Origin: Microterricola gilva
Lineage (GTDB): Bacteria; Actinomycetota; Actinomycetes; Actinomycetales; Microbacteriaceae
NCBI RefSeq assembly: GCF_004217495.1
Contig: NZ_SHLC01000001.1
Location: 186,001-250,000, forward strand
DNA length: 64,000 nt
Direction: 5' to 3'
Below the pieces are notes generated by a model. It saw only the letters and a program-made list of their open reading frames with translations, was not told where the DNA came from and ran no database searches. Positions 3,652-59,620 of this stretch are shown in pieces; position 1 is the stretch's first letter; each line of letters begins with the position of its first letter. The position numbers and the translations under genes were made by a program.

Positions 3652-3670
3652 GGTGTCGACAGGCTCAGCC
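3652..3670. repeat. GGTTGAGCCTGTCGAAACC-type repeat overlapping the kynU stop codon
   Basis: On the minus strand this reads GGCTGAGCCTGTCGACACC. The TGA inside the repeat is the kynU stop codon. Related copies occur at 28041-28162, 30587-30657, 41702-41720 and 59434-59535. Confidence 0.5.
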
Positions 3671-4963
3671 AGCGGCGTCGGCCAGCACCGCCGAGAGGGT
3701 GTCGCGGGCGGCGGCCATGCCGCGGTAGACCTCGTCGAAGCTCGTCGAGAGCGGGGCGAGCCCGATCCGCAGCCCGCCAGGGTCGCGGTAGTCGGGGATG
3801 ACGTCCTGCTCCCAGAGCCGGGCGTTCACCTCGCGCATCGCCGGGTGGTGCACGGTCACGTGCCCGCCGCGCTCCTCCGGGTCGGCGGGTGTCGCGAGCG
3901 TCACGCCGAGCGGCGCGAGCCACTCCTCGAACAGCCGGATGGCGAACGCGGTCAGTGCGCGGGACTTCTCCCGGATTGCGCCCATGCCCGCCTCCTCGAT
4001 CATCTCGAGCGTGTCCTGCATGGCGAGCATGCCGACGATGGCGGCCGTTCCGCTGACGAATCGCTGCATCCCGGGCGCCGGCTCATAGTTGGGGCCCATG
4101 GCGAACATGTCGCTCGTTCCCCACCAGCCCTGGATCGGCTGGGCGAGCTCCGCCTGCAGCCCCTCGCGCACATAGGCGAATGCCGGGGAGCCCGGACCGC
4201 CGTTCAGATACTTGTAGGTGCAGCCGACGGCCAGGTCGAAGCCCCAGGCGTCGGCCTCGACGGGCACGGCGCCGGCGGAGTGGCAGAGGTCCCAGAGGAT
4301 CAATGCCCCGGCCTCGTGGGCGATGCGGGTCAGCTCAGGCGCATCGGCGAGGTGGGCAGAACGATAGGCGACGTGCGAGATGACGACGAGCGCCGTCTGC
4401 GGCCCGACGACGGACGCCAGCTGCTCCGGCGTGACGCCGGCGCTCGTGTCGACCTCGATCCAGCGCAGGCTGAGGCCGCGCTCCTTCGCGATGCCATCGA
4501 GGATGTAGCGGTCGGTCGGGAAGTTGTCGGTGTCGACGACGATCTCGACGCGTGCGGGGTCGCGGGCGATCTGGGCATCGACGGCGGCGCGCGCCAGCTT
4601 GTAGAGCAGCACCGTCGTCGAGTCGCCGATCACCGTCTGGCCCGCGGCCGCACCAATCACCGACGCGCCGATGCGGTCGCCGATCACGTAGGGCAGCCGC
4701 AACCAGGTCTCGTCCCAGCCGCGGATCAGCCGACCGGCCCACTCCTCGCGGAGGAAGTTCTCGACCCGCTCGATCGCCGACAGCGGTGGGCGCCCGAGTG
4801 AGTTGCCGTCGAAGTAGACGAGCTCGCTCTCAGCGCCGGCAAAGCGCTCGCGGAAATAGGCGAGCGGGTCTGCCGCATCGAGCCGCCGCGCCTCGGTCAG
4901 CAGCGGCTCTGCGTGGCCGACGGATGCCGCGGCATCCGAGATCGTGGTGCGGTCATCGCTCAT
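3665..4963 (-). CDS. kynU: Kynureninase
   Basis: A 432-residue fold-type I PLP enzyme that cleaves L-kynurenine to anthranilate and alanine. Diagnostic stretches are FDGNSLGRPP near the N-terminus, WDLCHSAG with the PLP-pyridine Asp at about 225, and CTYKYLNGGPGSP with the Schiff-base Lys at about 251. Length is normal for KynU. The ATG overlaps the stop codon of the preceding amidohydrolase gene (ATGA), indicating translational coupling in the kynA-amidohydrolase-kynU operon. The stop codon lies within a dispersed intergenic repeat. Anthranilate could feed tryptophan synthesis or aromatic degradation; no anthranilate dioxygenase is present nearby. Confidence 0.95.
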   Translation of the reverse strand: MSDDRTTISDAAASVGHAEPLLTEARRLDAADPLAYFRERFAGAESELVYFDGNSLGRPPLSAIERVENFLREEWAGRLIRGWDETWLRLPYVIGDRIGASVIGAAAGQTVIGDSTTVLLYKLARAAVDAQIARDPARVEIVVDTDNFPTDRYILDGIAKERGLSLRWIEVDTSAGVTPEQLASVVGPQTALVVISHVAYRSAHLADAPELTRIAHEAGALILWDLCHSAGAVPVEADAWGFDLAVGCTYKYLNGGPGSPAFAYVREGLQAELAQPIQGWWGTSDMFAMGPNYEPAPGMQRFVSGTAAIVGMLAMQDTLEMIEEAGMGAIREKSRALTAFAIRLFEEWLAPLGVTLATPADPEERGGHVTVHHPAMREVNARLWEQDVIPDYRDPGGLRIGLAPLSTSFDEVYRGMAAARDTLSAVLADAAG

Positions 4964-6075
4964 GGCAGCGTCTCCTCGAGGTAGTCAAGCGTTGTTCCGC
5001 GGGCTCCGGCGAGCCAGCGGGCGGTCTGTACGGCGATGTCGGTTGTGTCCGTCTCCTCGCCGGCGGCGAAGGCGATCTCGCTCGGCGGATCGCCGGGGAC
5101 CCAGGCGACGCGCGGTCCGATACGCAGATTCGACCCGTCCCCGGCGATCGCCGTGACGAGCCCGTTCGCGCTCAGCCCGGCCTCGGCGAGGGCGAGGAGC
5201 TCGCGTTCGTTCACGCCGACCGGCAGCGGGCCGTTGCCGAGGTCGGTTCCGTAGAGCACGCGGCCGCCGCGCTGGACGAAGCGGCGCACGTTGTCGATCG
5301 CGATGGCGCGGGCCGGCGTGTTCTCGCCCCAGCCGTGGATGTCGATCGTCGAGATCCACTGCATGCCCATGAGCGTCATCTCATCGAGCAGCCCATCGCT
5401 CAGGGCCTCGCTGAACGGGGCATGGGCGAGGAGGTCGGCGCCGACGTCGACGGCCAGTTGGGCGCTGCCGATGCCCTCGGCGTGGGCGATGAGCGGAATC
5501 TTCTTGCGCCTGGCCCGCTCGTAGACGCCGATCTGCGCGTGCAGCTCAGGCAGCGGGCCTGCGTCGCTGTTCAGCATCAGCTTGATCGCCCTGGCGCCGA
5601 GCTCCACCTGGGCGTCGACGGCCGCCTGCGCCTCCTCAAAGGTGTTCAGTTCGATGATCGAGCCGGGTGGGGCCCAGCCGCTCTGGCCGGGGTAGCCGCC
5701 CGGCGAGGTGAGGAAGGCGCCGACGAAGTAGGTTTCCGGTAGCTCGGAGCCCATCTGCGCCGAGTCGATCGACCAGAGCGCGATCTCCTCGGGAATCCAG
5801 CCGAGGTCGAGCGCGTGGGTGATGCCGCCGGGCAGCAGCGCCTCGCGATCGATCAGCCCCATGTGCACGTGCCGGTCGAACAGCACAGGAAAGAGGGTGC
5901 CTGGGATCTCCAGTTCCGCCGGGCGGGCGCGTGCCGCTCGCTGCGTGGCGGTGTCGGCGAGCGACGGCTCCGGATCCGGGTGCAGGTGGCCGGCGTGGTA
6001 GGTGAAGACCGTCGGCCCCCGCCACTCTCCAGCCCACCAGTTGCGCACGCTGATCCGCGTGCCCTCGGTGATCAT
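4960..6075 (-). CDS. Metal-dependent amidohydrolase inside the kyn operon
   Basis: A 371-residue amidohydrolase-superfamily (TIM-barrel) protein. All expected metal ligands can be seen in order: HVH at about 69-71 after strand 1, a Lys in RAIKLML, His in LIAHAEG, His in LLAHAPF and Asp in YGTDLGNG. It is the middle gene of the operon, 7 bp after kynA and overlapping kynU by ATGA. The pathway step between the kynA and kynU products, hydrolysis of N-formylkynurenine, has no KynB-type gene here, so this enzyme is a candidate non-orthologous formamidase. That role is inferred from position only. It might instead act on another amide or cyclic amide. Confidence 0.8.
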   Translation of the reverse strand: MITEGTRISVRNWWAGEWRGPTVFTYHAGHLHPDPEPSLADTATQRAARARPAELEIPGTLFPVLFDRHVHMGLIDREALLPGGITHALDLGWIPEEIALWSIDSAQMGSELPETYFVGAFLTSPGGYPGQSGWAPPGSIIELNTFEEAQAAVDAQVELGARAIKLMLNSDAGPLPELHAQIGVYERARRKKIPLIAHAEGIGSAQLAVDVGADLLAHAPFSEALSDGLLDEMTLMGMQWISTIDIHGWGENTPARAIAIDNVRRFVQRGGRVLYGTDLGNGPLPVGVNERELLALAEAGLSANGLVTAIAGDGSNLRIGPRVAWVPGDPPSEIAFAAGEETDTTDIAVQTARWLAGARGTTLDYLEETLP

Positions 6076-6082
6076 GGCATTC

Positions 6083-6943
6083 TCATGGCGTGCGGCCGAT
6101 TTCGGTGCGCACCGCGTACAGCTCGGGGAAGAAGGTGAGCTCGAGGGCCTTCTGCAGGAAGGCCGCGCCGGTCGAACCGCCGGTCCCCGTCTTCATGCCG
6201 ATGGTGCGCTGCACCGTCTTCAGGTGCCGGAAGCGCCAGAGCTGGAAGTTCTCCTCCAGGTCGACGAACTCCTCACAGGCCTCGTAGGCAGACCAGTTCT
6301 CGCTCGCGTTCTCGTAGATGTGCCGGAACACGGGCACCAGCTCCGGGTCGAGCACCCACGCCTCGGTCACGTCGCGCTCCAGCACCGACTGCGGAACCGC
6401 GTAGCCTGCCCGGTGCAGGTAGCGCAGGAACTCGTCGTAGATGCTCGGGGCCTCGAGCAGTTCGCCGAGAAGGGCGGATGCCGCGGCATCCGACTCGAAG
6501 ACACTCAGCATGCGGCGGTTCTTGTTGCCGAGCACGAACTCGACGGCACGGTACTGCCAGGACTGGAAACCGCTGGAGTTGCCGAGGAAGCCACGGAACT
6601 CGGCGTACTCGGTGGGGGTGAGCGTGGCGAGAACCGACCACTGCTCCGTCAGCGTGCGCTGGATGTGTTTGACCCTGGCGATGCGCTTGAGCGCGGGCGG
6701 GAGCTGGTCGGCGCGCAGCAGATCGCGCGCGCTTGCCAGCTCGTGCAGCACGAGCTTGAGCCAGAGCTCGGTCGTCTGGTGCTGCACGATGAAGAGCAGT
6801 TCGTCGTGGTGCTCCGGCACGCTCACCGGCAGCTGGGCCGAGAGCAGCGTGTCGAGCTGCAGGTAGCCGCCGTAGCTCATCCGGTCAGTGAAATCCGTCA
6901 CAATGTCCGGGTCGAACTCGCGGGTGTTCTTCTCGACCGACAC
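6083..6943 (-). CDS. kynA: Tryptophan 2,3-dioxygenase
   Basis: The heme enzyme that opens the indole ring of L-tryptophan to N-formylkynurenine. The motif FIVQHQTTELWLKL places the active-site His at residue 55, as in characterised bacterial TDO; RFRHLKTVQRTIG holds the proximal heme His, and GTGGSTG follows. I chose the GTG at 6943 rather than the upstream ATG because AAGGAG lies 5 nt before it and the resulting 286 residues match the family length; the longer frame would add an Arg-rich tail with no homology. First gene of the kynA-amidohydrolase-kynU operon, divergent from a TetR regulator. Confidence 0.94.
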   Translation of the reverse strand: MSVEKNTREFDPDIVTDFTDRMSYGGYLQLDTLLSAQLPVSVPEHHDELLFIVQHQTTELWLKLVLHELASARDLLRADQLPPALKRIARVKHIQRTLTEQWSVLATLTPTEYAEFRGFLGNSSGFQSWQYRAVEFVLGNKNRRMLSVFESDAAASALLGELLEAPSIYDEFLRYLHRAGYAVPQSVLERDVTEAWVLDPELVPVFRHIYENASENWSAYEACEEFVDLEENFQLWRFRHLKTVQRTIGMKTGTGGSTGAAFLQKALELTFFPELYAVRTEIGRTP

Positions 6944-7125
6944 TGGTGCTCCTTGCTTGATGCCATGCGCAACTCCATGGTTGCTCCAAGCATCATCGCT
7001 GCCAGCGGGGGCCGAGCGCAACGCGGCTCGGCGCGTCCAGGAGGCATTCAGCGATCGGGTCCTGCCCGCACGCGTGTGGCGCACCGCCGGCCGCGGGGAG
7101 TCGCGCCCAGCACCCGCATCAAGCG

Positions 7126-7165
7126 GAGGTATACCTCGGTATAATTCACGCGCGAGGCGTACAAT
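7126..7165 (+). promoter_or_regulatory. Palindromic operator and leaderless promoter of the TetR gene
   Basis: GAGGTATACCTC (7126-7137) is a perfect 12-bp palindrome followed by GGTATAATTC. TACAAT at 7160-7165 ends exactly 6 nt before the ATG at 7172, so the TetR mRNA is probably leaderless and the palindrome covers the -35 area. Its place between tetR and kynA suggests control of both. Confidence 0.55.
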
Positions 7166-7171
7166 GGATGC

Positions 7172-7849
7172 ATGAGTTCAACGGGCGATTCGGCTGTCAA
7201 CGGCGGCTCCGGCGCCGAGCCGATCAGGCGTCGAAAGGACGCCCAACGCAACTACGATCGGCTGCTCAGCGAGGCGCGCACGGTCGTGGCCGAACGGGGC
7301 AGTGACGCGTCGCTGGAGGAGATCGCACGGCGCGCCGAGGTGGGCATCGCCACGCTCTACCGGCACTTCCCGAACCGCACCGAGCTGATCAGGGCGCTCT
7401 ACGAGCAGTCCCTGGCCGGGCTCATGGCCTCCTCGTCGGACATCTTCGCCGCGCCGAGCGCGTGGGAGGGTGTCGCGCGTTACGTCGAACGGGTCGCGGA
7501 ATGGCTGATCGATGACCCGGGCCTGCCGTCGATCATCGTCTACATGGGCACGGCGGATGCCGGCTACCGGCCGGGTGCGGCCATCGAGGCGCCGCTCGCC
7601 GCCCTCATCGCGCGCGCCCAGGCCGACGGCGAACTCCGCCCGGATGTCAACGGGGTCGACGTGTCGATCCTCGTCACGATGCTCGGCGTGCTCTCCAGCT
7701 ACAACCGTCCAGGAAAGCCGGCCACGATCGACTGGCGCCGCCAGCTCGGGATCGTGCTCGACGGGCTGCGCGCCGAGAATGTGCGGACCGAACTGCCGGG
7801 AACGCCGCTCGACGCCGACGGATTCCACCACGCGGTGCACAAGAACTGA
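7172..7849 (+). CDS. TetR family transcriptional regulator
   Basis: A 225-residue protein with a TetR N-terminal helix-turn-helix at about residues 25-70: the stretch from DASLEEIARRAEVGIATLYRHFPNRTELI is diagnostic. The rest is a helical ligand-binding domain resembling the TetR C-terminal family that carries a short SSYNRPG stretch. It is transcribed divergently from the kyn operon across a 227-bp spacer with a perfect palindrome next to its own promoter, so it may repress kynA, itself, or both. The inducer could be tryptophan, kynurenine or something unrelated. The family is certain; the target is inference. Confidence 0.85.
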   Translation: MSSTGDSAVNGGSGAEPIRRRKDAQRNYDRLLSEARTVVAERGSDASLEEIARRAEVGIATLYRHFPNRTELIRALYEQSLAGLMASSSDIFAAPSAWEGVARYVERVAEWLIDDPGLPSIIVYMGTADAGYRPGAAIEAPLAALIARAQADGELRPDVNGVDVSILVTMLGVLSSYNRPGKPATIDWRRQLGIVLDGLRAENVRTELPGTPLDADGFHHAVHKN

Positions 7850-7875
7850 GGCGCCGGCGCGGCATCCGTTGCCGG

Positions 7876-8763
7876 CTAGGCCGTGCGCACCTGGATGAGG
7901 TTCGCCCACGGGTCGTCGAAGCGCAGCGTCTGGCCGTCGTCGCGCACGCCGACGCCGTAGTGCGTCATCCGCTCCTGCAGGGAGCCGAGCGCGTCGGCAT
8001 CCGGAACGAGGATGTCGACCTGGCCGAGCCCGAGGGCGAGGCGGCGCTTGCCGGCCCCGCGGCTGTTCCAGGTGTTCATGGCCATGTGGTGGTGGTAGCC
8101 GCCTGCCGAGACGAAGAGCGCGCTGCCGCCCATCTCCGCCGTGGTCTCGAAGCCGAGCTTGTCGACGTAGAAGTCGCGGGCGCTCGCGACATCGCCGACG
8201 GAGAGGTGCACGTGGCCGACGACCGCGCCACCGATGACGGGGTCTGCGATGCCGCCCTCGGTGAGGTGGTTCTGCAGGTACTCATTGGGGTCGAGCGCGA
8301 GCGTCGCCATGTCGATCGTGCCGTGGGTCCAGCTCCACTCGGTGCGGGTGCGGTCCCAGTAGAGCTCGATGCCGTTGCCCTCAGGGTCGGTGAAGTAGAA
8401 CGCCTCGCTCACGATGTGGTCGGCGCTGCCCGTGAAGGTGCCCGGGTGCTGCCTGGCCACGGAGTAGACGGCGGCGGCGAGGGCGGCCTGGGTCTCGAAC
8501 AGGATGGCCGTGTGGAACAGCCCGGCGGCGCGCGGCTCCGGGCTGACGAGCTCCGGGGCGTGCTGCAGGATGACGATCGGGACGGTGCCGCGGCCGAGCA
8601 CGGCCGTCCCGCCCTCGTGGCTCAGCAGCCGCAGCGTGACGGCGTCGCGGTAGTAGGCGATCATCGCGTCGAGGTTGCCGACGCGCAGGGTCACCGCGCC
8701 CATTCCGGTGTCTGGGGCCAGGAGTTCGCTGGCGCTGCGGGTGGACAGTGGCTGCTCGGTCAT
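7876..8763 (-). CDS. VOC family (glyoxalase fold) protein, catechol-2,3-dioxygenase-like
   Basis: A 295-residue protein made of two VOC half-domains: the first opens with MGAVTLRVGNLDAMIAYY and closes with FYFTDPEGNGIELYWD, the second opens with VGHVHLSVGDVASARDFY and contains GGYHHHMAMN. The overall plan matches CatE-type extradiol dioxygenases. Candidate metal ligands are His in GHVHLS and His in YHHHMAM; the usual C-terminal Glu is replaced by Gln in LIQVRTA, so activity is not assured. The start at 8763 (MTEQPL) is chosen because the longer frame upstream reads through a terminator hairpin. It lies downstream of, and convergent with, the TetR gene, so a link to anthranilate-derived catechols is only possible. 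Confidence 0.78.
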   Translation of the reverse strand: MTEQPLSTRSASELLAPDTGMGAVTLRVGNLDAMIAYYRDAVTLRLLSHEGGTAVLGRGTVPIVILQHAPELVSPEPRAAGLFHTAILFETQAALAAAVYSVARQHPGTFTGSADHIVSEAFYFTDPEGNGIELYWDRTRTEWSWTHGTIDMATLALDPNEYLQNHLTEGGIADPVIGGAVVGHVHLSVGDVASARDFYVDKLGFETTAEMGGSALFVSAGGYHHHMAMNTWNSRGAGKRRLALGLGQVDILVPDADALGSLQERMTHYGVGVRDDGQTLRFDDPWANLIQVRTA

Positions 8764-8775
8764 GCTGAATGCAAC

Positions 8776-8812
8776 GGATGCCGCGGCGCGCGTATTCCAC
8801 GCCGCGGCATCC
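8776..8812. terminator. Hairpin terminator after the ThuA-Gfo/Idh operon
   Basis: GGATGCCGCGGCG (8776-8788) pairs perfectly with CGCCGCGGCATCC (8800-8812). It lies just past the stop codon of the minus-strand dehydrogenase gene, and its stem is built from two GGATGCC-type heptamers. Confidence 0.7.
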
Positions 8813-8819
8813 GCTCGGC

Positions 8820-9977
8820 TCAGGCGCGAGCCAGGGCCGCAGTACCCCAGTGCCCAGAACTCAGTCCGGCTTCGACCGACCCCCACGCGGCGAGCCGCTC
8901 CCTCACGTCGTCGCGTCGCTCAGTGGCGATGGCCTCGGCGTAGGAGGCGGCGAGCAGATCGGCGATGACGACACGCTCGCCGCTGGCAGCACTCAGTGCG
9001 GCGGCTTCGACCATGGCGAGACTTGCGATGTTGTCGCGAATCTCGTTCTCCGGCGTTGTGTTGTTGCGAACGCTTTCGACGAATGCAGCCAGTGACCCGG
9101 CGATGTTCTCGTAGTCGCTCGGCACGTCGACGGTGATGTCGGCCTCGGCATCAACCTCGACGTGGTGATCGCCGTCCCAGTGGGCGGCGCCGTGTTCGCC
9201 GTACACGTGCCACGATCCGTTCCAGGAGGTCTGAAGCCCCGGCGAGCAGCGGCTGCCGGCGTACACATAGCGGACGCCGTCGGTCAGCTCGAACACGGCC
9301 GTCGCGGACGCGTTGCTCGCGTACCAGCTCCACGAAGGATTCCACGCGCTGCACTGCACCGAGAGCGGTTCGTGTCCGGTGATGTGACGAAGCGCATCGA
9401 AATGATGGATCGACATGTCAACGAGCAGCGGGTGGAGCATCTGTTCGCGAAAGCCGGGCTCGTGATCGGCGTGGAAGAAGTCCGTCGTGACGGTTCCCAG
9501 CGCCCCGAGCTTGCTGACGGCCTGTCGGAGTGCGCTGAGGTGATTGAAGTAGCGGCGGGACTGGCTCACCATGATGAGTCCGCCCGTCACGTCGGCCAGG
9601 GCAACCTGCTGGATCGCCGCGGGAAGCGTTTCAGCGATCGGCTTCTCGCAGAGCACGGGGAGGCCGATCAGCAACGCTGTTTCATTGACGATTCGATGCG
9701 CTTGCGGAACGGTGACATTGATTACTGCCTCGGCGCCCGAGTTCGCCACCACCTCCTCGAGCGAGGTGCCGACGATGACGCCGGATGCCGCTTCCTCCAG
9801 TACTGCGCGCTCCGCGAGCGGCAGGTCGAGGTCGACGAGCCCGACGAGCCGCGCGTGTGGCGAGGAGGCGAGCATGCGGATCCAGGATCGCCCCATCGCG
9901 CCAGCGCCCACCACGACCACTGGCATCCGTTCGTTGCTTTCCACTGCGAACTCCTGGCTCTCGGTGCTGATGCTCAT
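8820..9977 (-). CDS. Gfo/Idh/MocA family oxidoreductase
   Basis: A 385-residue NAD(P)-dependent sugar or cyclitol dehydrogenase. The N-terminal Rossmann motif is VVVVGAGAMGRSW; CEKPIAET matches the conserved EKP Lys, and SIHHFDALRH holds the conserved HxxD region of the active site. The start at 9977 (MSISTES) is 5 nt after the ThuA stop codon; the longer frame would overlap that gene. In the neighbouring inositol cluster it could serve as the myo- or scyllo-inositol dehydrogenase (IolG role). With ThuA next to it, it may instead make a 3-keto glycoside, as in the ThuA/ThuB disaccharide pathway of rhizobia. The specific substrate is not decided by sequence. Confidence 0.87.
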   Translation of the reverse strand: MSISTESQEFAVESNERMPVVVVGAGAMGRSWIRMLASSPHARLVGLVDLDLPLAERAVLEEAASGVIVGTSLEEVVANSGAEAVINVTVPQAHRIVNETALLIGLPVLCEKPIAETLPAAIQQVALADVTGGLIMVSQSRRYFNHLSALRQAVSKLGALGTVTTDFFHADHEPGFREQMLHPLLVDMSIHHFDALRHITGHEPLSVQCSAWNPSWSWYASNASATAVFELTDGVRYVYAGSRCSPGLQTSWNGSWHVYGEHGAAHWDGDHHVEVDAEADITVDVPSDYENIAGSLAAFVESVRNNTTPENEIRDNIASLAMVEAAALSAASGERVVIADLLAASYAEAIATERRDDVRERLAAWGSVEAGLSSGHWGTAALARA

Positions 9978-28040: not shown

Positions 28041-28162
28041 CCCCGTCGGTTGAGCCCGCCCCGTCGGTTGAGCCCGTTCCGTCGGTTGAGCTTGTCGAAA
28101 CCGGGCCCCGTTGGTTGAGGTTGTCGAAACCCTGCCCCGTCGGTTGAGGTTGTCGAAACCCG
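28041..28162. repeat. Array of GTCGGTTGAG...GTCGAAACC repeats
   Basis: Five CCGT(C/T)GGTTGAG units follow each other between 28041 and 28162; the last three continue to CTTGTCGAAACC or GGTTGTCGAAACC. The same element appears singly near 3652, 30587, 30632, 41702, 59434 and 59515. It behaves as a dispersed intergenic repeat of this genome. Confidence 0.75.
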
Positions 28163-28710: not shown

Positions 28711-29550
28711 TCAGCGGAGCGGCAGGATCAGCGGTGTCCCCGTGCGCGGGTGCTCGAGCACCTCGACGTCCTGGCCGTAGACCGTGCCGATGCGCTCGGC
28801 GGTCAGCACCGCGCGCGGCTTGCCGCTGGCGACGACGCGACCACGCTGCAGCAGCGTGACCCGGTCGGCGTACGCTGCGGCCACGTTGAGGTCGTGCAGC
28901 ACGACGATCACGGTGTCGCCGGATGCCGCCCGCTCCCGGGCCAGGCGCATCACGTCCTCCTGGTGCTTCAGGTCGAGGGCGGCCGTCGGCTCGTCGAGCA
29001 TCAGCGTCGACGCTCCCTGCGCCAGCACGCGCGCGAGCGCGGCTCTGGCACGCTCGCCGCCGGAGAGCGACGGCACCGCGCGGGAGGCGAGCGCCGTGAC
29101 GTCGGTCAGTGCCATCGCCTCGGCGATCATCCGCTCGTCGTCATCCTCCGCGTCGGTTCCGCGCCACGGGGCTCGCCCCATCTCGACGACCTCGCGCACG
29201 GTGAACGGGAAGAACACCTCGTGTTGCTGCAGCAGCACCGCGCGCACACGGGCGAGCTCGCGCAGCTTCCACGCGGCGAGCGGGCGCCCGTCCAGGGTCA
29301 CGGTGCCGGCAGTCGGCGTGACGTCACCGGCGAGGGCGCCGAGCAGCGTGGACTTGCCTGCACCGTTCGGGCCGAGCAGGGCGTGCAGCTCGCCGGGGCG
29401 CGCCTCGAAGTCGACGCCGTCGAGCAGCCGGGCGCCGTCGATGGCGACGGTGAGTCCGGCGGCGACCAGGCTCGGACCGGCGCCGGCGGGGCCCTGCAGG
29501 GCGGGCGCAGCGGCATCCGACGCCCCGGTCAGTGAATCGGTGGCGCTCAT
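28711..29550 (-). CDS. hmuV: Heme ABC transporter ATP-binding protein
   Basis: A 279-residue ABC ATPase. Walker A is LLGPNGAGKSTLLGAL, the Q-loop lies in AVLLQQHEVFFPF, the signature motif is LSGGERARAALARVLAQG, Walker B is STLMLDEPTAALD, and the switch His is in VVLHDLNVAA. The start at 29550 overlaps the hmuU stop codon by ATGA. Last gene of hmuTUV; it powers heme or siderophore uptake with the FecCD-type permease encoded upstream. Paired IdeR boxes before hmuT indicate iron repression. Confidence 0.93.
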   Translation of the reverse strand: MSATDSLTGASDAAAPALQGPAGAGPSLVAAGLTVAIDGARLLDGVDFEARPGELHALLGPNGAGKSTLLGALAGDVTPTAGTVTLDGRPLAAWKLRELARVRAVLLQQHEVFFPFTVREVVEMGRAPWRGTDAEDDDERMIAEAMALTDVTALASRAVPSLSGGERARAALARVLAQGASTLMLDEPTAALDLKHQEDVMRLARERAASGDTVIVVLHDLNVAAAYADRVTLLQRGRVVASGKPRAVLTAERIGTVYGQDVEVLEHPRTGTPLILPLR

Positions 29551-30698
29551 CCCCATCCTCCGGAGCGGCGGCGCGTGCGGCGGAGCAGCCAGAAGAAGAA
29601 CGGTCCGCCGACGAGGGAGGTGAGCATGCCGATCGGCAGATCGGCCATCGGGACGGCGGTGCGCGCGACGAGGTCGGCGCTGGCCATCAGCAGCGCGCCG
29701 CCCAGCACGCTCGCGATCAGCAGCGGGCGGTGGGCCGGGCCGAGCGCCATGCGCATGAGGTGGGGAACGACGAGGCCGACGAAGGCGATGATTCCGGCGA
29801 AGGCGACGGCGGCGGAGACCAGCACCGCCACGACGACGATCACGACGATGCGCACGAGCTCGACGTTCACCCCGAGGTGGCGTGCCCCACGCTCGCCGAG
29901 CGAGAACAGGTCGAGGGTGCGGGCCAGGCTGAACGCGACGATCAGGCCGATCAACACGAGCGGCGCAATGATCGCGACCTGCTGCCAGCGCGCGCCGTTC
30001 AGGCTGCCGAGCTGCCAGAAGATGATCTGCTCGCGCGACGCGCTGTCGCCGAGGAAGGTGAGCAGGGCCAGCGCCGCACCCGCGAAGGCATTGATCGCGA
30101 TGCCCGTGAGCACAAGGGTCACGACCTCGGTCTTGCCGCGCGTGCGGCTGGCGAAGTAGACGAAGAGGGTCGTCGCCAGGCCGGCGATGAACGCGGCCAG
30201 GGCCACGCTCCACTCGCCGAGGAAGGTCCAGCCGAAGACGATGGCGGTGGCCGCTCCGAGCGCCGCGCCGGAGGAGACGCCGACGACGCTCGGCTCGGCC
30301 AGCGGGTTCGAGAACACGGCCTGCATGAGGGTTCCGGATGCCGCCAGGGCCGCACCGATCAGCAGGGCGAGCACGATGCGCGGGAAGCGGATCGTCCAGA
30401 GCGCGACATCGGCGGTGGGATTGGCGGCCGGGCCAACGTCGAGGCCGAGCGCCCGCAGCACGGAGCCGACGACCTCGCTCGGCGCGATCGTCAGCTGGCC
30501 GCTGCCGGCCGAGATGAGGCAGACCAGCACGAGCGCGACGCTGAGCGTGCCGAACAACACGGTGCGCCGACGGCGGAGCCGCCGGATTTCGACAGGCTCA
30601 ATCAGCGATGGTGTTGGCCCAATCGGCGGGGCCCCGTCGGTTGAGCTCGTCGAAACCGCGTCAGGAGTCGCCGTCGCCGTGGTGCTGTCCGCCATCAC
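29547..30698 (-). CDS. hmuU: FecCD-family heme/iron ABC permease with repeat-derived N-terminus
   Basis: A 383-residue membrane protein with about nine to ten hydrophobic segments. Family features are FPRIVLALLIGAALAASGTLMQAVFSNPLAEPSVVGVSSGA and VPHLMRMALGPAHR. The ATG overlaps the hmuT stop codon by ATGA. The first 40 residues are odd: VSTSSTDGAP and SLIEPVEIRR are translations of two copies of the genome's dispersed GGTTGAG...GTCGAAACC repeat (30632-30657 and 30587-30605). The repeat has therefore been absorbed into the cytosolic N-terminus without breaking the frame. Confidence 0.92.
   Translation of the reverse strand: MMADSTTATATPDAVSTSSTDGAPPIGPTPSLIEPVEIRRLRRRRTVLFGTLSVALVLVCLISAGSGQLTIAPSEVVGSVLRALGLDVGPAANPTADVALWTIRFPRIVLALLIGAALAASGTLMQAVFSNPLAEPSVVGVSSGAALGAATAIVFGWTFLGEWSVALAAFIAGLATTLFVYFASRTRGKTEVVTLVLTGIAINAFAGAALALLTFLGDSASREQIIFWQLGSLNGARWQQVAIIAPLVLIGLIVAFSLARTLDLFSLGERGARHLGVNVELVRIVVIVVVAVLVSAAVAFAGIIAFVGLVVPHLMRMALGPAHRPLLIASVLGGALLMASADLVARTAVPMADLPIGMLTSLVGGPFFFWLLRRTRRRSGGWG
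30587..30657. repeat. Two dispersed-repeat copies within the hmuU coding sequence
   Basis: ATTTCGACAGGCTCAATCAG at 30587-30605 and a CCCCGTCGGTTGAGCTCGTC-type copy at 30632-30657 lie inside hmuU near its 5' end, encoding residues about 14-37. Confidence 0.8.
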
Positions 30699-31846
30699 TG
30701 GGCCTGCGCCGCGAGCGGGCCGGACTGCTCCGGCGCGTAGACCGCGCGGGCCAGCGCCTCCAGCACCTGCGGGGTGCGCGGGCCGAAGCTCAGGATCTCG
30801 GTGTCGCTCATGTCGACGATGCGGCGGTTCTCCCCGGCCGGTGTGCTCGCCAGGGCCGGGATGCTCTCGAGCAGGCCGTCCACGCCGTTGACCGACTCCA
30901 GCCCCTTGCTCATCACGAGCACGAGGTCGGGCGCGGCTTCGACGAGTGCCTCGGCGGTGACCGGGCGCATGCCCTGCCAGCCGATCTCGCCGGCGACGTC
31001 GACGCCGCCGATGCTCGTGATCAGGGCGTCGGCGGCCGACTCCTCGCCGAAGAGGTAGTACACGCCGGCGCTTCCACGCACGTAGAGGAAGAGCATGCGC
31101 GGCCGGTCGGCGGTGTCCGCGGGGGCGATGGCCTCGATGTCGGCAGTGACGGCGGTGAGCTCTGCATGCACACGCTCGGTGAGTTCGGTGCCGGCATCCG
31201 GAACGCCGAGGGCCGCCGCGACCTGTTCGATCACGGTGCCGATGGTGTCGATGCTGCGCTCGGAGGTGGTGATGACGACGGGGATGCCGGCATCGCGCAG
31301 CTGGGCGAGCACGGCGGGCGGGCCGAGCGTGGTGTCGGTCAGGATCACGGTCGGTGCAAGCTCGAGGATCGGCTCGGCGGAGAGCTGGTGGCCGCCCATC
31401 GTCACGACCGGCAGTGCGGCCGCCTCGGCGAATCCGGTGGAGCTGTCGCGGCCAACGACCTGCTCGCCGAGGCCGAGGCCGAAGACGGTTGCGGCGAGCG
31501 AGCCCGAGACGTCGAGCGCGAGAATGCGCGACGCGTCGGTCACCGTCACCTCTGTGCCCTTGTCGTCGACGACGGTCACGGGCAGCTGCGGCTCGGCCGC
31601 GTCGTCGATGGCCGTGATGCCGGCGTCGGCCAGGCAGGCCGTTGACGGGCCGACCCAGTCACGCGGCGCATCCAGCACGTCCAGCTCAGCGAGGGGGACC
31701 TCGGATGCCACGCACTCCCGCTGCGGTTCCGCCGCGACCGTGGTGCCGGCACAGCCTGTCAGGGCGAGCAGCGCGGCGGCCAAAGCCAGGGGAGCTCCGG
31801 CCCGCAGTGCGCGGCGCAAGGGGGAGCGGGGAGCAGAAGAGATCAT
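30695..31846 (-). CDS. hmuT: Heme/hemin ABC transporter substrate-binding lipoprotein
   Basis: A 383-residue lipoprotein: basic start, hydrophobic core and lipobox LTGC. It has the TroA/BtuF-like clamshell organisation of HmuT, with VDDKGTEVTVTDASRILALDVSGSLAATVFGLGLG, then VVTMGGHQLSAEPILELAPTVILTD and a C-terminal lobe containing LFLYVRGSAGVYYLFGEESAADAL. It should hand heme to HmuU. First gene of hmuTUV and divergent from the HtaA surface protein. An IdeR-type box ends or begins only 6 bp upstream of the start codon, so binding would block transcription directly. Confidence 0.92.
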   Translation of the reverse strand: MISSAPRSPLRRALRAGAPLALAAALLALTGCAGTTVAAEPQRECVASEVPLAELDVLDAPRDWVGPSTACLADAGITAIDDAAEPQLPVTVVDDKGTEVTVTDASRILALDVSGSLAATVFGLGLGEQVVGRDSSTGFAEAAALPVVTMGGHQLSAEPILELAPTVILTDTTLGPPAVLAQLRDAGIPVVITTSERSIDTIGTVIEQVAAALGVPDAGTELTERVHAELTAVTADIEAIAPADTADRPRMLFLYVRGSAGVYYLFGEESAADALITSIGGVDVAGEIGWQGMRPVTAEALVEAAPDLVLVMSKGLESVNGVDGLLESIPALASTPAGENRRIVDMSDTEILSFGPRTPQVLEALARAVYAPEQSGPLAAQAQ

Positions 31847-31852
31847 GATTAG

Positions 31853-31871
31853 TAAGGATAGCCTAAGCTAA
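31853..31871. promoter_or_regulatory. IdeR/DtxR iron box near hmuT
   Basis: TAAGGATAGCCTAAGCTAA matches the 19-bp iron-box consensus TTAGGTTAGCCTAACCTAA at 16 positions. It lies 6 bp upstream of the hmuT start codon. Confidence 0.75.
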
Positions 31872-31902: not shown

Positions 31903-31921
31903 TTAGGTAAGCCTTAGCTAA
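31903..31921. promoter_or_regulatory. IdeR/DtxR iron box upstream of the HtaA gene
   Basis: TTAGGTAAGCCTTAGCTAA matches the iron-box consensus at 16 of 19 positions. It is 87 bp upstream of the HtaA start; a TTGACA lies at 31875-31880 between the two boxes. Confidence 0.75.
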
Positions 31922-32008: not shown

Positions 32009-35000
32009 GTGAAGACACTGCAGCAGCACCGTGCCCGCCCACAGAGATGGATAGCCACTCTCACGATCGCGCTCCTGGCGCTCGGCGCTCCGCTGGCCAC
32101 CGCCGCGCCCGCGTTCGCCAGCGAGGCGCCGCCCGTTGTCGAGCCCCTCGAGCAGCCTGAGCGGACGCCGGTCGACGAGGCCGCGCCCGCCGACACAGCC
32201 CCGGCCGACGCAGCGGACGAGCCGGCGGCGGATGACGCAGCCGGGGAGCCCGCCGCGGGCGCGCCGGAACAAGCAACGGTCGCTCCGGCCCCCGAGGCCG
32301 CACCGCCGGCCGCAGCACCGCTCGTCGCCGGCGCCGCTGCGCTCGCGGTCACGGTGGACTCGGCATCCGAGGAGGCTGGGCTCTCCGTCCGCGTCGTCGG
32401 AACCGGATTCGGCGCGACGACAGGTGCATACGGTGCGCTGATCGAGAAGGGCACGGAGGCCGCCGTCGGCGCCTCAGGCGGCTACACCGCCTTCGGCTAC
32501 TGGATGACGCCGGGCGCCATCGTAGACGGCGCGTTCGACAAGTCTCTCGTCGCCGCGACCACTGCCCTCGACCGCACCAAGCTGTACGAGGTCATCGTGT
32601 GGCAGGGCCACTCGGCCCCCAACGCCGACACGATCTACGCCCGCGCCGACGTCGCGCCGACGACCGAGCAGTGGGACGCGCTGTTCCCGCCCGCCGTCGC
32701 CCCGACGGTGTCGGTGTCGAAGACGGAGGGTCTGAACCCGGCCGGCGAGACCGTCACGGTGACGGGCACCGGTTTCGTTCCCGGTGACGGCACCTCGGGT
32801 ACTCGCCCGCCCCTGGCCGGCAAGTTCGGCGGCTCCTACGTCGTGTTCGGTCGTTTCGCGGATGCGTGGAAGCCGTCCGAGACGGCTCCGTCGACTGCCC
32901 GTGTCGTCGCCGATCAGAAGTGGGCCGTTCCGGCCGCCGACATGGCCACGATCGGCGGTGCGAACGCAGGTGCGATCGAGCTGAAGGCCGATGGCACGTT
33001 CAAGGCGACGTTGACGGTGACCGAGGAGTTCGCGAAGAACCCCGGCACGGGCAACTACGGCATCTACACCTACTCGGGCAGCGGCGCGAAGGCGGCCCAG
33101 TTCGAGACGTTCACCCCGATCACCTTCGCCCCGAAGGCCGTCACCCCGACGGTGTCGGTGTCGAAGACGGAGGGTCTGAACCCGGCCGGCGAGACCGTCA
33201 CGGTGACGGGCACCGGTTTCGTTCCCGGTGACGGCACCTCGGGTACTCGCCCGCCCCTGGCCGGCAAGTTCGGCGGCTCCTACGTCGTGTTCGGTCGTTT
33301 CGCGGATGCGTGGAAGCCGTCCGAGACGGCTCCGTCGACTGCCCGTGTCGTCGCCGATCAGAAGTGGGCCGTTCCGGCCGCCGACATGGCCACGATCGGC
33401 GGTGCGAACGCAGGTGCGATCGAGCTGAAGGCCGATGGCACGTTCAAGGCGACGTTGACGGTGACCGAGGAGTTCGCGAAGAACCCCGGCACGGGCAACT
33501 ACGGCATCTACACCTACTCGGGCAGCGGCGCGAAGGCGGCCCAGTTCGAGACGTTCACCCCGATCACCTTCGCCCCGAAGGCCGTCACGCCGACGATCGC
33601 GGCATCCGTTGACTCGGCAACGGCGGAATCCGGGCTCACCGTGCGCGTCGTCGGTTCGAGCTTCGGCACGACGACCGGCGCATACGCCGCCCTGATCGAG
33701 AAGGGCACGGAGGCGAACGTCGACGCATCGGGCGGCTACGCAGCGTTCGGCTTCTGGATGACGCCAGGCGCCATCGTCGGCGGCGCATTCGACAAGACCC
33801 TGGTCGCCCCGACGACCGCCCTCGACCGCACCAAGCAGTACGAGGTCATCGTTTGGAAGGGCCACACCGCCCCGACCGCCGACACGATCTACGCCCGTGC
33901 AGCCGTCACCCCGACGGGCGGCCAGTGGAGTGCGCTGTTCCCCAGCACCCCGGGCGACGTGGCCACCACGACGACGCTGAGCCTTGACCGGACGTCCGTC
34001 GTCGCCGGCAGCACCGTCGCACTCACTGCCGCTGTCACGCCGGCAACCGCCCAGGGCAGCATCGTCTTTGCCGTCAACGGCGCACCAGCCGGTTCCCCCG
34101 TGCGCCTCTCCGGCGGTGCCGCATCTGCGCAGGCGGTGCTGCACACCGTGGGGAAGGCCGCGCTGACTGCGCGCTTCGTCCCGGATGCCGGCTTCGCGGC
34201 GAGCACCTCTCCGGCCAGTACCGTCGCGGTGACGAGCGCGGTCGTGCCGCCCGTCGCACCGACGGTGCAGGGCGGATCGCTCAGCTGGGGTGTCGGAAGC
34301 GTCTTCCGCAACTACGTCACCGGGCCCATCGCCAAGGGCTCGATCAGCGTCAGCGGTGGTGCAACCTCGGCGAGCGGTGTCTTCCAGTTCGGCCAGAGCG
34401 GTGGCAGCTTCAACCAGGCCAGCGGAACGGGAACGGCCGATTACTCCGGGAACGTGCGCTTCACCGGCCACGGCGGGATCCTCGACCTGACCTTCGCCAA
34501 CCCGAGTCTTTCGGTGACCGGTCCGTCCAGTGCGAGCCTCTCGCTCTCCGTCAACGGCGGCCGCGTCGACTTCGCCACGGTCGACTTGGGTGCGGCCTCA
34601 CGGTCGACGCTCAACGGCGCCACCGTGTTCAGCGGCGCTCCGGTCACCCTGACCGCTTCGGGATCGAGCGCGTTCCAGGGCTACTACCCCGCGGGGCAGA
34701 GCCTGGACCCGCTCACCGTCACGATCGGTGCCGCGGCTGCGGCGCCGGCCGGCTCGACCGGAACGGTGTCGACGGCATCCGTGCGCACCGCGGCAGCGAG
34801 CGACATCCCGGCGACCCCGCCGGCCACGACGGGCATTACGCTCGCCCCGGCCGTGCTCGCCGGACTCCAGGCCGGCGGCCAGATCTCCTTCGAGGTCGAC
34901 GGCTTCGAGCCGAACGAGACCGGCATCCGCGTCGTGATCTACTCGACCCCGACCGTGCTGGCGCAGAACCTCACCGCCGACGCCAACGGCGTCGTGCGCT

Positions 35001-35821
35001 GGAGCGGAACCCTTCCGGCCACCCTCACCGGCCAGCACACGCTGACCGTTCAGGGGTCGATCAGCAAGGGTGTCGTCCTCACGATCCCCGAGCGCACGGT
35101 CGCCGGCTCGTGCGCGGTCTCCGGCGCAACGCTCGACTGGGGATTCAAGACGAGCTTCCTCGCCTACATCAGCAGCGGCATCGCCAGCGGCGGCTGGGAG
35201 CTCTCCGGCGGCACCACCGAGGCCGACGGCCTGTTCCACTGGGCAGACGGCTCGGGCAGCATCGACGCCGAGACCGGCTCCGGCCTCGTGAACTACACCG
35301 GCGGCATCCGCTTCACCGGCCACGACGGCGCCCTCGACACCACGATCGCGAACCCGCGCATCGAGCTCGTCAGTGCCACGGAGGGCTACCTCGTGCTCGA
35401 TGTGACCGGCACCACCCAGCAGGGTGAGCCGATCGCGGCCCAGGCCGTGCGCTTCGGCAGCCTCGCCCTCGGCGATGGCAGCCTGCAGGTGACCGCCGAC
35501 GGCATCACCGGCACCGACATCGCCGCCGAGCTGACGGATGCCGGCGCGGCAGCCTTCGGCACCTACCCCGCCGGCGACGCCCTCGACCCGGTCAGCTTCA
35601 CGCTGCCGACCACCGACTGCGCCGTCGTGACGGAGGAGGCCGTTGCGGCCGAGACCGGGGCCGGCGACACGGAGGCGACTGCGACCAGCGCGGACACCGC
35701 CGAGCAGGGCGTCGACTGGGTCGTCTGGATTCTGGCCGCGGCTCTCGCCGCCGCCGCAGCTGTCATCGTCGTGCTGCTCGTCAAGCGGCGTCGAGCGGGG
35801 GCTGGCGCCTCGGCCGAGTAA
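32009..35821 (+). CDS. Large HtaA-domain surface protein with internal tandem repeats
   Basis: A 1270-residue exported protein, start GTG with GGAGAA upstream. Residues 1-37 form a signal peptide; an acidic Ala/Pro linker follows to about 110. Then come module A1 (about 112-228), two identical 148-residue modules B (231-378 and 379-526), module A2 (529-650, about 75% like A1), an Ig-like domain (about 652-745), an HtaA domain (about 755-910, LSWGVGSVFRNYVTG), a further linker domain and a second HtaA domain (about 1040-1200, LDWGFKTSFLAYISSG). A hydrophobic segment (about 1232-1256) and KRRR anchor it in the membrane; no LPxTG is seen. It should bind heme and pass it to HmuT. Iron repression is likely through the adjacent boxes. 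Confidence 0.9.
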   Translation: MKTLQQHRARPQRWIATLTIALLALGAPLATAAPAFASEAPPVVEPLEQPERTPVDEAAPADTAPADAADEPAADDAAGEPAAGAPEQATVAPAPEAAPPAAAPLVAGAAALAVTVDSASEEAGLSVRVVGTGFGATTGAYGALIEKGTEAAVGASGGYTAFGYWMTPGAIVDGAFDKSLVAATTALDRTKLYEVIVWQGHSAPNADTIYARADVAPTTEQWDALFPPAVAPTVSVSKTEGLNPAGETVTVTGTGFVPGDGTSGTRPPLAGKFGGSYVVFGRFADAWKPSETAPSTARVVADQKWAVPAADMATIGGANAGAIELKADGTFKATLTVTEEFAKNPGTGNYGIYTYSGSGAKAAQFETFTPITFAPKAVTPTVSVSKTEGLNPAGETVTVTGTGFVPGDGTSGTRPPLAGKFGGSYVVFGRFADAWKPSETAPSTARVVADQKWAVPAADMATIGGANAGAIELKADGTFKATLTVTEEFAKNPGTGNYGIYTYSGSGAKAAQFETFTPITFAPKAVTPTIAASVDSATAESGLTVRVVGSSFGTTTGAYAALIEKGTEANVDASGGYAAFGFWMTPGAIVGGAFDKTLVAPTTALDRTKQYEVIVWKGHTAPTADTIYARAAVTPTGGQWSALFPSTPGDVATTTTLSLDRTSVVAGSTVALTAAVTPATAQGSIVFAVNGAPAGSPVRLSGGAASAQAVLHTVGKAALTARFVPDAGFAASTSPASTVAVTSAVVPPVAPTVQGGSLSWGVGSVFRNYVTGPIAKGSISVSGGATSASGVFQFGQSGGSFNQASGTGTADYSGNVRFTGHGGILDLTFANPSLSVTGPSSASLSLSVNGGRVDFATVDLGAASRSTLNGATVFSGAPVTLTASGSSAFQGYYPAGQSLDPLTVTIGAAAAAPAGSTGTVSTASVRTAAASDIPATPPATTGITLAPAVLAGLQAGGQISFEVDGFEPNETGIRVVIYSTPTVLAQNLTADANGVVRWSGTLPATLTGQHTLTVQGSISKGVVLTIPERTVAGSCAVSGATLDWGFKTSFLAYISSGIASGGWELSGGTTEADGLFHWADGSGSIDAETGSGLVNYTGGIRFTGHDGALDTTIANPRIELVSATEGYLVLDVTGTTQQGEPIAAQAVRFGSLALGDGSLQVTADGITGTDIAAELTDAGAAAFGTYPAGDALDPVSFTLPTTDCAVVTEEAVAAETGAGDTEATATSADTAEQGVDWVVWILAAALAAAAAVIVVLLVKRRRAGAGASAE
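32701..33588 (+). repeat. 444-bp perfect tandem duplication inside the HtaA gene
   Basis: Bases 32701-33144 and 33145-33588 read the same throughout, giving two identical 148-residue modules. Identity at synonymous positions points to a recent duplication or ongoing gene conversion. Confidence 0.92.
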
Positions 35822-40028: not shown

Positions 40029-40050
40029 ATTGAGGTTGTCTAGATCGCAC

Positions 40051-40190
40051 CAGCATCGCTGGCGGTTCTCGAGTTTGCCTGAGTTAGGGCTGCCGCCTTT
40101 CGCGGCGCTGCGCGCCGCGCCAGCATCGCTGGCGGTTGTCGAGTTTGCCTGAGAATGGGCTGCCGCCTTTCGCGACGCTTCGCGTCGCGC
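40051..40190. repeat. Two tandem copies of a 70-bp intergenic repeat
   Basis: Copies 40051-40120 and 40121-40190 have exactly the same length. Both begin CAGCATCGCTGGCGGTT, contain GAGTTTGCCTGAG and GGGCTGCCGCCTTTCGCG, and end with a CG-rich self-complementary arm (GCGGCGCTGCGCGCCGC or GCGACGCTTCGCGTCGC). The arm differs between the copies but stays complementary in each. Other members lie at 41816-41892, 42067-42150, 59530-59610 and 35880-35966. Confidence 0.85.
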
Positions 40191-59453: not shown

Positions 59454-59620
59454 TCCCGTTTCGACCCTTCGACAGGCTCAGGGGAGCCAGGCTCAATCAG
59501 CGGGGATTCCCGTTGGTTGAGCCTGTCGAAACCCGGCAAGCAGCGGTGACGGTTCCTGAGATTGCCTGGGTACTGGCTGCCGCCTCTCGGGATGCTCCGC
59601 ATCCCGCTGGCTTGAGGGAG
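59434..59620. repeat. Dispersed repeats overlapping the RND stop codon
   Basis: GAGCTCGTCGAAACCGCCTGA at the end of the RND gene, TTCGACAGGCTCAGG (59467), GGTTGAGCCTGTCGAAACC (59515-59533) and a 70-bp-family copy (AGCAGCGGTGACGGTTCC to TCGGGATGCTCCGCATCCCG, 59539-59610) fill the 236-bp gap to the next gene. Confidence 0.65.

Follow-up and report, generated by a model that had tools for sequence, protein, structure and literature searches.

Two identical 444-bp tandem modules in an HtaA-type surface protein of Microterricola gilva: a probable recent in-frame duplication

Introduction

Bacterial surface proteins in which highly identical, separately folding tandem domains change in copy number are described, with SasG, Rib and Sgo_0707 as cases, as Periscope Proteins (PMC8201768, PMC9704523). 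Ig-like repeats that are identical at the DNA level are mentioned for Ilm of Yersinia ruckeri (PMC6868369). Ilm is an adhesin with more than 20 copies, and its likeness to the protein described here lies in the repeat phenomenon. The Periscope Proteins resemble it in that it is a surface protein with two identical modules, a confident predicted fold and a C-terminal anchor judged by hydropathy. It differs from them in that it holds only two copies, that variation is seen between species, that its known functional domains, those of HtaA type, stand on the C-terminal side of the array, and that its apparent role is in heme uptake as opposed to adhesion.

HtaA and ChtA of Corynebacterium share with this protein the HtaA (CR) domains, an aligned Tyr and His, and adjoining genes for a Hmu-type transporter; this protein also carries the N-terminal array of modules A-B-B-A treated below. 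In CR domains the Tyr is described as the axial heme ligand and the His as a helper (PMC12494546). A further comparison concerns the enediyne apoproteins neocarzinostatin and macromomycin, which module B resembles in its predicted fold and through weak profile matches, while differing from them as a tandem module of an anchored surface protein with extra loops, no cysteine and scores below the cut-offs. The neocarzinostatin family has two disulfides, and its fold is known to carry a flat hydrophobic ligand.

The window analysed here is a stretch of 64,000 nucleotides from Microterricola gilva (contig NZ_SHLC01000001.1, positions 186,001 to 250,000), and all coordinates given for it are counted from its first base.

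The HtaA surface protein and its surroundings

The gene at 32009-35821 on the plus strand encodes a protein of 1270 residues from a GTG start, as delimited by the open reading frame, its domains and a start region conserved in congeners. From the N- to the C-terminus, and all on the plus strand, an apparent signal peptide identified by eye (32009-32122) is followed by the modules A1 (32339-32689), B1 (32690-33133), B2 (33134-33577) and A2 (33590-33952), the two A modules being placed by profile matches and alignment. Then come a Big_3_5 Ig-like domain (PF16640; 33980-34234, residues 658-742, 38.1 bits against a cut-off of 35.5), two HtaA domains (34271-34723 and 35126-35602) and a C-terminal hydrophobic anchor followed by KRRR (35720-35782, limits by eye; hydropathy 2.94 over the last 60 residues). 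The HtaA domains score 145.3 and 138.5 bits against the curated PF04213 cut-off of 24, and when aligned with solved CR domains both possess the axial Tyr in helix 1 and the helper His in a loop; by score and key residues the protein is assigned to the HtaA family. A Pfam search of the genome found no third HtaA domain elsewhere, and no family for the entire 1270-residue protein was found in NCBIfam.

Divergent from this gene lies an hmuTUV-like ABC operon on the minus strand, named by Pfam and position alone, which comprises an HmuT-like substrate-binding protein (30695-31846; Peripla_BP_2, 99.5 bits), an HmuU-like permease (29547-30698; FecCD, 312 bits) and an HmuV-like ATPase with a provisional start (28711-29550; ABC_tran, 109.5 bits). 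Between the HtaA gene and the HmuT-like gene are two 19-bp palindromes, at 31853-31871 and 31903-31921, which are candidate iron boxes of the DtxR/IdeR type; both match the DtxR/IdeR consensus as patterns (0 expected in shuffles). The first has a counterpart at the matching place in three congeners, and the second recurs in three congeners with at most one base changed. A box with at most three mismatches, counted anywhere within the locus, was present in 54 of the 67 loci bearing module B as against 16 of 335 shuffled sequences, the control consisting of single-base shuffles only. A relative of HmuT, U or V lay within the fetched stretch at 48 of the 67 loci, and an HtaA-like domain was called by our own profile model at 64, which is an upper estimate. 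A 19-bp motif is mentioned in an earlier paper (PMC524172). The view of the first-pass annotation that this is an iron-regulated HtaA protein is borne out as far as sequence can tell, by the two box candidates and by HtaA domains above the cut-off.

The window also contains eight matches to a GGTTTCGACARSCTCAACC-like element (at most two mismatches, 0 expected in shuffles), among them those at 28084-28160, 30585-30657 and 59515-59533 and others at 3652 and 41704; three of the eight form a tandem cluster. A 70-bp tandem repeat of 2.1 copies with 89% matches is found at 40046-40190.

Two exact copies of a 444-bp unit

When the window was compared with itself at an offset of 444, positions 32700-33144 equalled positions 33144-33588, a run of 445 consecutive base matches bounded in that comparison by the nearest mismatches at 32699 and 33145. 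The 444-bp unit has exactly two occurrences, forming an array at 32700-33588 with 0 mismatches, and Tandem Repeats Finder reported the same array at 32693-33595 with a period of 444 and 2.0 copies. With respect to the module limits, exact identity thus starts within B1 at 32700 and extends to 33588 for B2. The interval 32701-33588, for which the first-pass annotation had claimed two adjacent modules identical at every base, corresponds to two 444-base units, and that claim is confirmed.

Across about 113 synonymous sites B1 and B2 show 0 differences (dS 0), which excludes chance identity. Between the B of the window and the single B of its nearest relative (G002), dS is 0.30, while A1 and A2, which flank the array, share 81% of their bases over 300 nt, with a dS of 0.47 and a dN of 0.12. 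The divergence earlier asserted for the flanking modules therefore stands, as does the reading of the exact identity as a recent duplication or conversion. The linkers A1/B1 and B2/A2 have 13 of 15 bases in common, counted by eye. The window is situated inside a single contig of 3,666,811 bases rated 100% complete.

Predicted fold of the repeated module

Module B gave no Pfam match above cut-off. Against the neocarzinostatin family (PF00960) the B of the window scored 17.2 bits alone and 13.0 bits in the genome search and did not reach the cut-off of 25, and a weak match was present in 13 of 21 relatives scanned singly (best E 0.00049). The NCBIfam model for enediyne chromoproteins matched 15 of 21 relatives (best E 1.9e-5) and gave 24.5 bits for the B of the window, with a cut-off of 86. 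In sequence searches of the PDB, B alone matched nothing better than a phage tail tube at E 0.016 and a 21-row profile nothing better than E 0.38, neither of them useful, and a long cysteine-bearing relative had no match.

The module had initially been described as not a recognised heme-binding fold, and structure prediction had been suggested as a check; that it has no known fold at all is not supported by the resulting AlphaFold model of B (pLDDT 89.0, pTM 0.85), which aligns best to neocarzinostatin and macromomycin. The top seven entries of VIA-align have Z scores of 9.2-9.9 and an rmsd of 2.9-3.2 over 98-101 residues, with 22-26% identity to B. The titles of six of these name neocarzinostatin or macromomycin; that of the seventh, 4jw3_A, does not name the chain, which is presumably neocarzinostatin as well. 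The next entry, which is unrelated, has a Z of 6.9. With Foldseek neither the B nor the A model had a PDB match reaching E 0.001; antibody, Brr2, SKICH and glycosidase domains headed its lists, and the assignment relies on VIA-align and not on Foldseek. For the A model the best VIA-align entry is a glycoside hydrolase (Z 8.4), with neocarzinostatin at 7.3; it is by profile comparison (probability 86, E 4.9e-6) that module A is recognised as a homologue of B.

Cysteine is absent from all 148 residues of B1 and B2, and since B falls below the score cut-off and is without cysteines, it is not filed here as a member of PF00960. Judged by its model, B is likely an Ig-like module of neocarzinostatin type that has additional loops and lacks cysteine. 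Tyr277, Trp287, Arg298 and Glu366 are conserved in 94-97% of 124 distinct copies of B, among which YVxFG and WxPS are conserved motifs. The predicted neocarzinostatin-like fold is likely a new detail for a domain previously unannotated; in the open-access literature nothing was found on this module, and no open-access paper was found that names neocarzinostatin with HtaA or with heme uptake.

Copy number and domain company in relatives

An unchanging number of copies in every relative, with the copies diverged from one another, had been named at the outset as an observation that would tell against a recent event. The genus comparison, covering five genomes including that of the window with one genome per species, instead gives two full copies of B in the window, one in G002, four in G004, none in G003, where the match spans 31 residues only, and one partial copy in G001. 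The array of G002 reads A-B-A-A-A and that of G004 B-B-B-B-A, each followed by three HtaA domains. The same region of G003 holds another module in two near-identical copies with a period of 369 bp and 4 mismatches in about 350 bases (locus L012, about 4792-5530); this duplicated stretch scores 30.4 bits, above the Pfam neocarzinostatin cut-off of 25. The draft G001 is broken at the array, one contig ending at the first residues of the next module and the other beginning inside B, and B matches at contig ends were also seen in G160, G162 and G220.

In the family sample, B was found at E 1e-10 or better in 56 of 398 genomes, 29 of which have at least two matches, those of G096 sitting in separate ORFs. 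A scan of named genomes, from which records very near the genome of the window may be left out, yielded 13 B loci, in Leifsonia, Leucobacter (three), Aeromicrobium, Nocardioides, Cellulosimicrobium, Phytoactinopolyspora (two) and four metagenome-assembled actinobacteria.

Of the 31 ORFs with multiple B modules, 28 have an HtaA-like domain on the C-terminal side of the array, and 6 of these 28 have one on the N-terminal side too. Among 79 B-bearing ORFs, B stands between HtaA and the C-terminus in 19, all with a single B, a position in which a spacer role is natural, and no HtaA was found within the ORF in 19. These calls were made with profile models of our own for B, A and H, which were iterated over the fetched loci at a threshold of E 1e-6. 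Since such models may include weak relatives, the counts of HtaA-like domains are upper estimates; in L105, for example, the domain called by the H model scores 19.4 bits in Pfam, where the cut-off is 24.

Several further arrangements were observed. Second ORFs without HtaA hold a B-type module in L019, L020, L022, L061, L077, L085, L089, L090, L091 and L092, several of them with a C-terminal hydrophobic stretch; those of L085 and L089, tested whole, had no Pfam match. An alignment of L019, L020, L021 and L022 shows a longer form of B with a pair of cysteines; the spacing is C-x7-C in L020 and C-x4-C in the other three. In L093 and L105 the B-bearing protein ends not in a membrane anchor but in SLH and CW_binding_2 modules, respectively, and similar tails, as judged by sequence, occur in L015, L086 and L102 and in L061, L085, L092 and L100. 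In L062 (G101) the ORFs at 4840-7224 and 6896-9541 encode A-B-B-B-A and A-A-A-HtaA-HtaA; the gene looks frameshifted, since its two parts lie in overlapping frames, and a sequencing error is possible.

Evolution of the arrays

Adjacent B pairs form a continuum from 60 to 100% DNA identity. Five adjacent pairs in four genomes are byte-identical, namely those of the window, of G021, where three identical copies lie on one contig, and of G160 and G162, where the pairs are at contig ends and the assembly is less sure. Six of 45 adjacent pairs have a dS of 0 and two are saturated; in the 37 measurable pairs dN/dS ranges from 0.05 to 0.74 and is below 1 without exception (37/37). The non-identical copies are under purifying selection.

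Of the 78 modules in multi-copy proteins, 58 have their nearest relative in the same protein, and at 20 of 31 loci this is true of every module. Homogeneity is not the rule, since at 11 of the 31 multi-copy loci at least one module is closer to a module of another genome. Some lineages keep fixed, diverged copies, as at two Leucobacter loci that are 94.5-95.6% identical by position (B1-B1, B2-B2) versus 80-81% within the locus. In the tree, which has few columns and whose long branches are unsure, the copies of G314 and G344 group by position, and the two B copies in each of two genomes of genus g26 group by genome. L014, being the same record as L010, is omitted from the pair, position, neighbour and locus counts, three B matches below 60 bits from the dN/dS, ORF-position and neighbour counts, and partial B matches from the neighbour count as well.

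The varying copy number, the pair identities of 60-100% and dN/dS below 1 show that the arrays evolve by module birth and death with stable periods and not by constant homogenisation, and the duplication in the window is such a birth-and-death event caught very young.

Origin and role of the second copy

The two identical modules probably go back to a very recent in-frame tandem duplication, in the outer arm of a membrane-anchored HtaA heme-capture protein, that took in one complete Ig-like module and the linker belonging to it. The second copy would have arisen through slippage, or through unequal recombination, at the similar linkers on either side of B. Conversion of two older copies would look identical to such a duplication, and the grouping by genome of the two B copies in genus g26 fits conversion as well as independent duplication. 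Yet an older duplication held identical by gene conversion, with the copy number long near two, is unlikely, as the identity covers the unit in full, as far as the two linkers, and leaves 0 residual difference, and as copy number varies in the genus; the nearest relative, moreover, has a single B, which makes a fresh duplication the simpler account. Identical repeats are a known source of assembly errors (PMC6868369), but an assembly duplication is hardly credible for a window in one closed contig, the more so as arrays recur in other single-contig genomes, with three identical copies in G021 and four copies in G004, and as the assembly of the draft G001 is interrupted inside the array, the kind of break that genuine near-identical repeats would produce.

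Following a recent duplication, the extra B modules may serve as folded spacers, making the outer, N-terminal arm longer or multiplying it, while the HtaA domains on the membrane-anchor side would bind heme and perhaps pass it towards the HmuTUV-like transporter. Since HtaA follows the array on the C-terminal side in 28 of 31 cases, an additional B should extend the outer arm and not raise the membrane-side HtaA domain. Module number would then be free to change while purifying selection maintains the module sequence. This spacer role, suggested by position, is the best single reading of B. It is quite improbable that the B modules bind a ligand such as heme, a porphyrin or a hemoprotein surface, with copy number setting capture capacity. 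The neocarzinostatin-type fold predicted for B, together with the ligand carriage known for this fold, the conservation of YVxFG, WxPS, Arg and Glu in the 124 distinct copies, and the HtaA-like domains at 64 of 67 loci speak for it, and the conserved Tyr, Trp, Arg and Glu may form part of a binding site. However, a common fold shows no function, the conservation may merely keep the fold, and the heme ligands appear already to be provided by the HtaA domains.

Implications

The event, the recent doubling of a surface-protein domain, is ordinary in kind and recurs in relatives and in other bacterial surface proteins. It adds the heme-uptake surface proteins of actinobacteria to the proteins with fast-turnover identical tandem domains, outside the usual adhesins, and a recurrent unannotated domain, often found with HtaA domains, gains a likely fold. 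Ligand binding by B, if it occurs, would link the fold of a drug carrier with iron acquisition. The broadest form of this idea, that tunable arrays of the neocarzinostatin fold in HtaA proteins across actinobacterial families bind a flat hydrophobic ligand, is a long shot; were it true, iron acquisition would be a second role of the enediyne-carrier fold, with the capacity for capture set by the number of modules.
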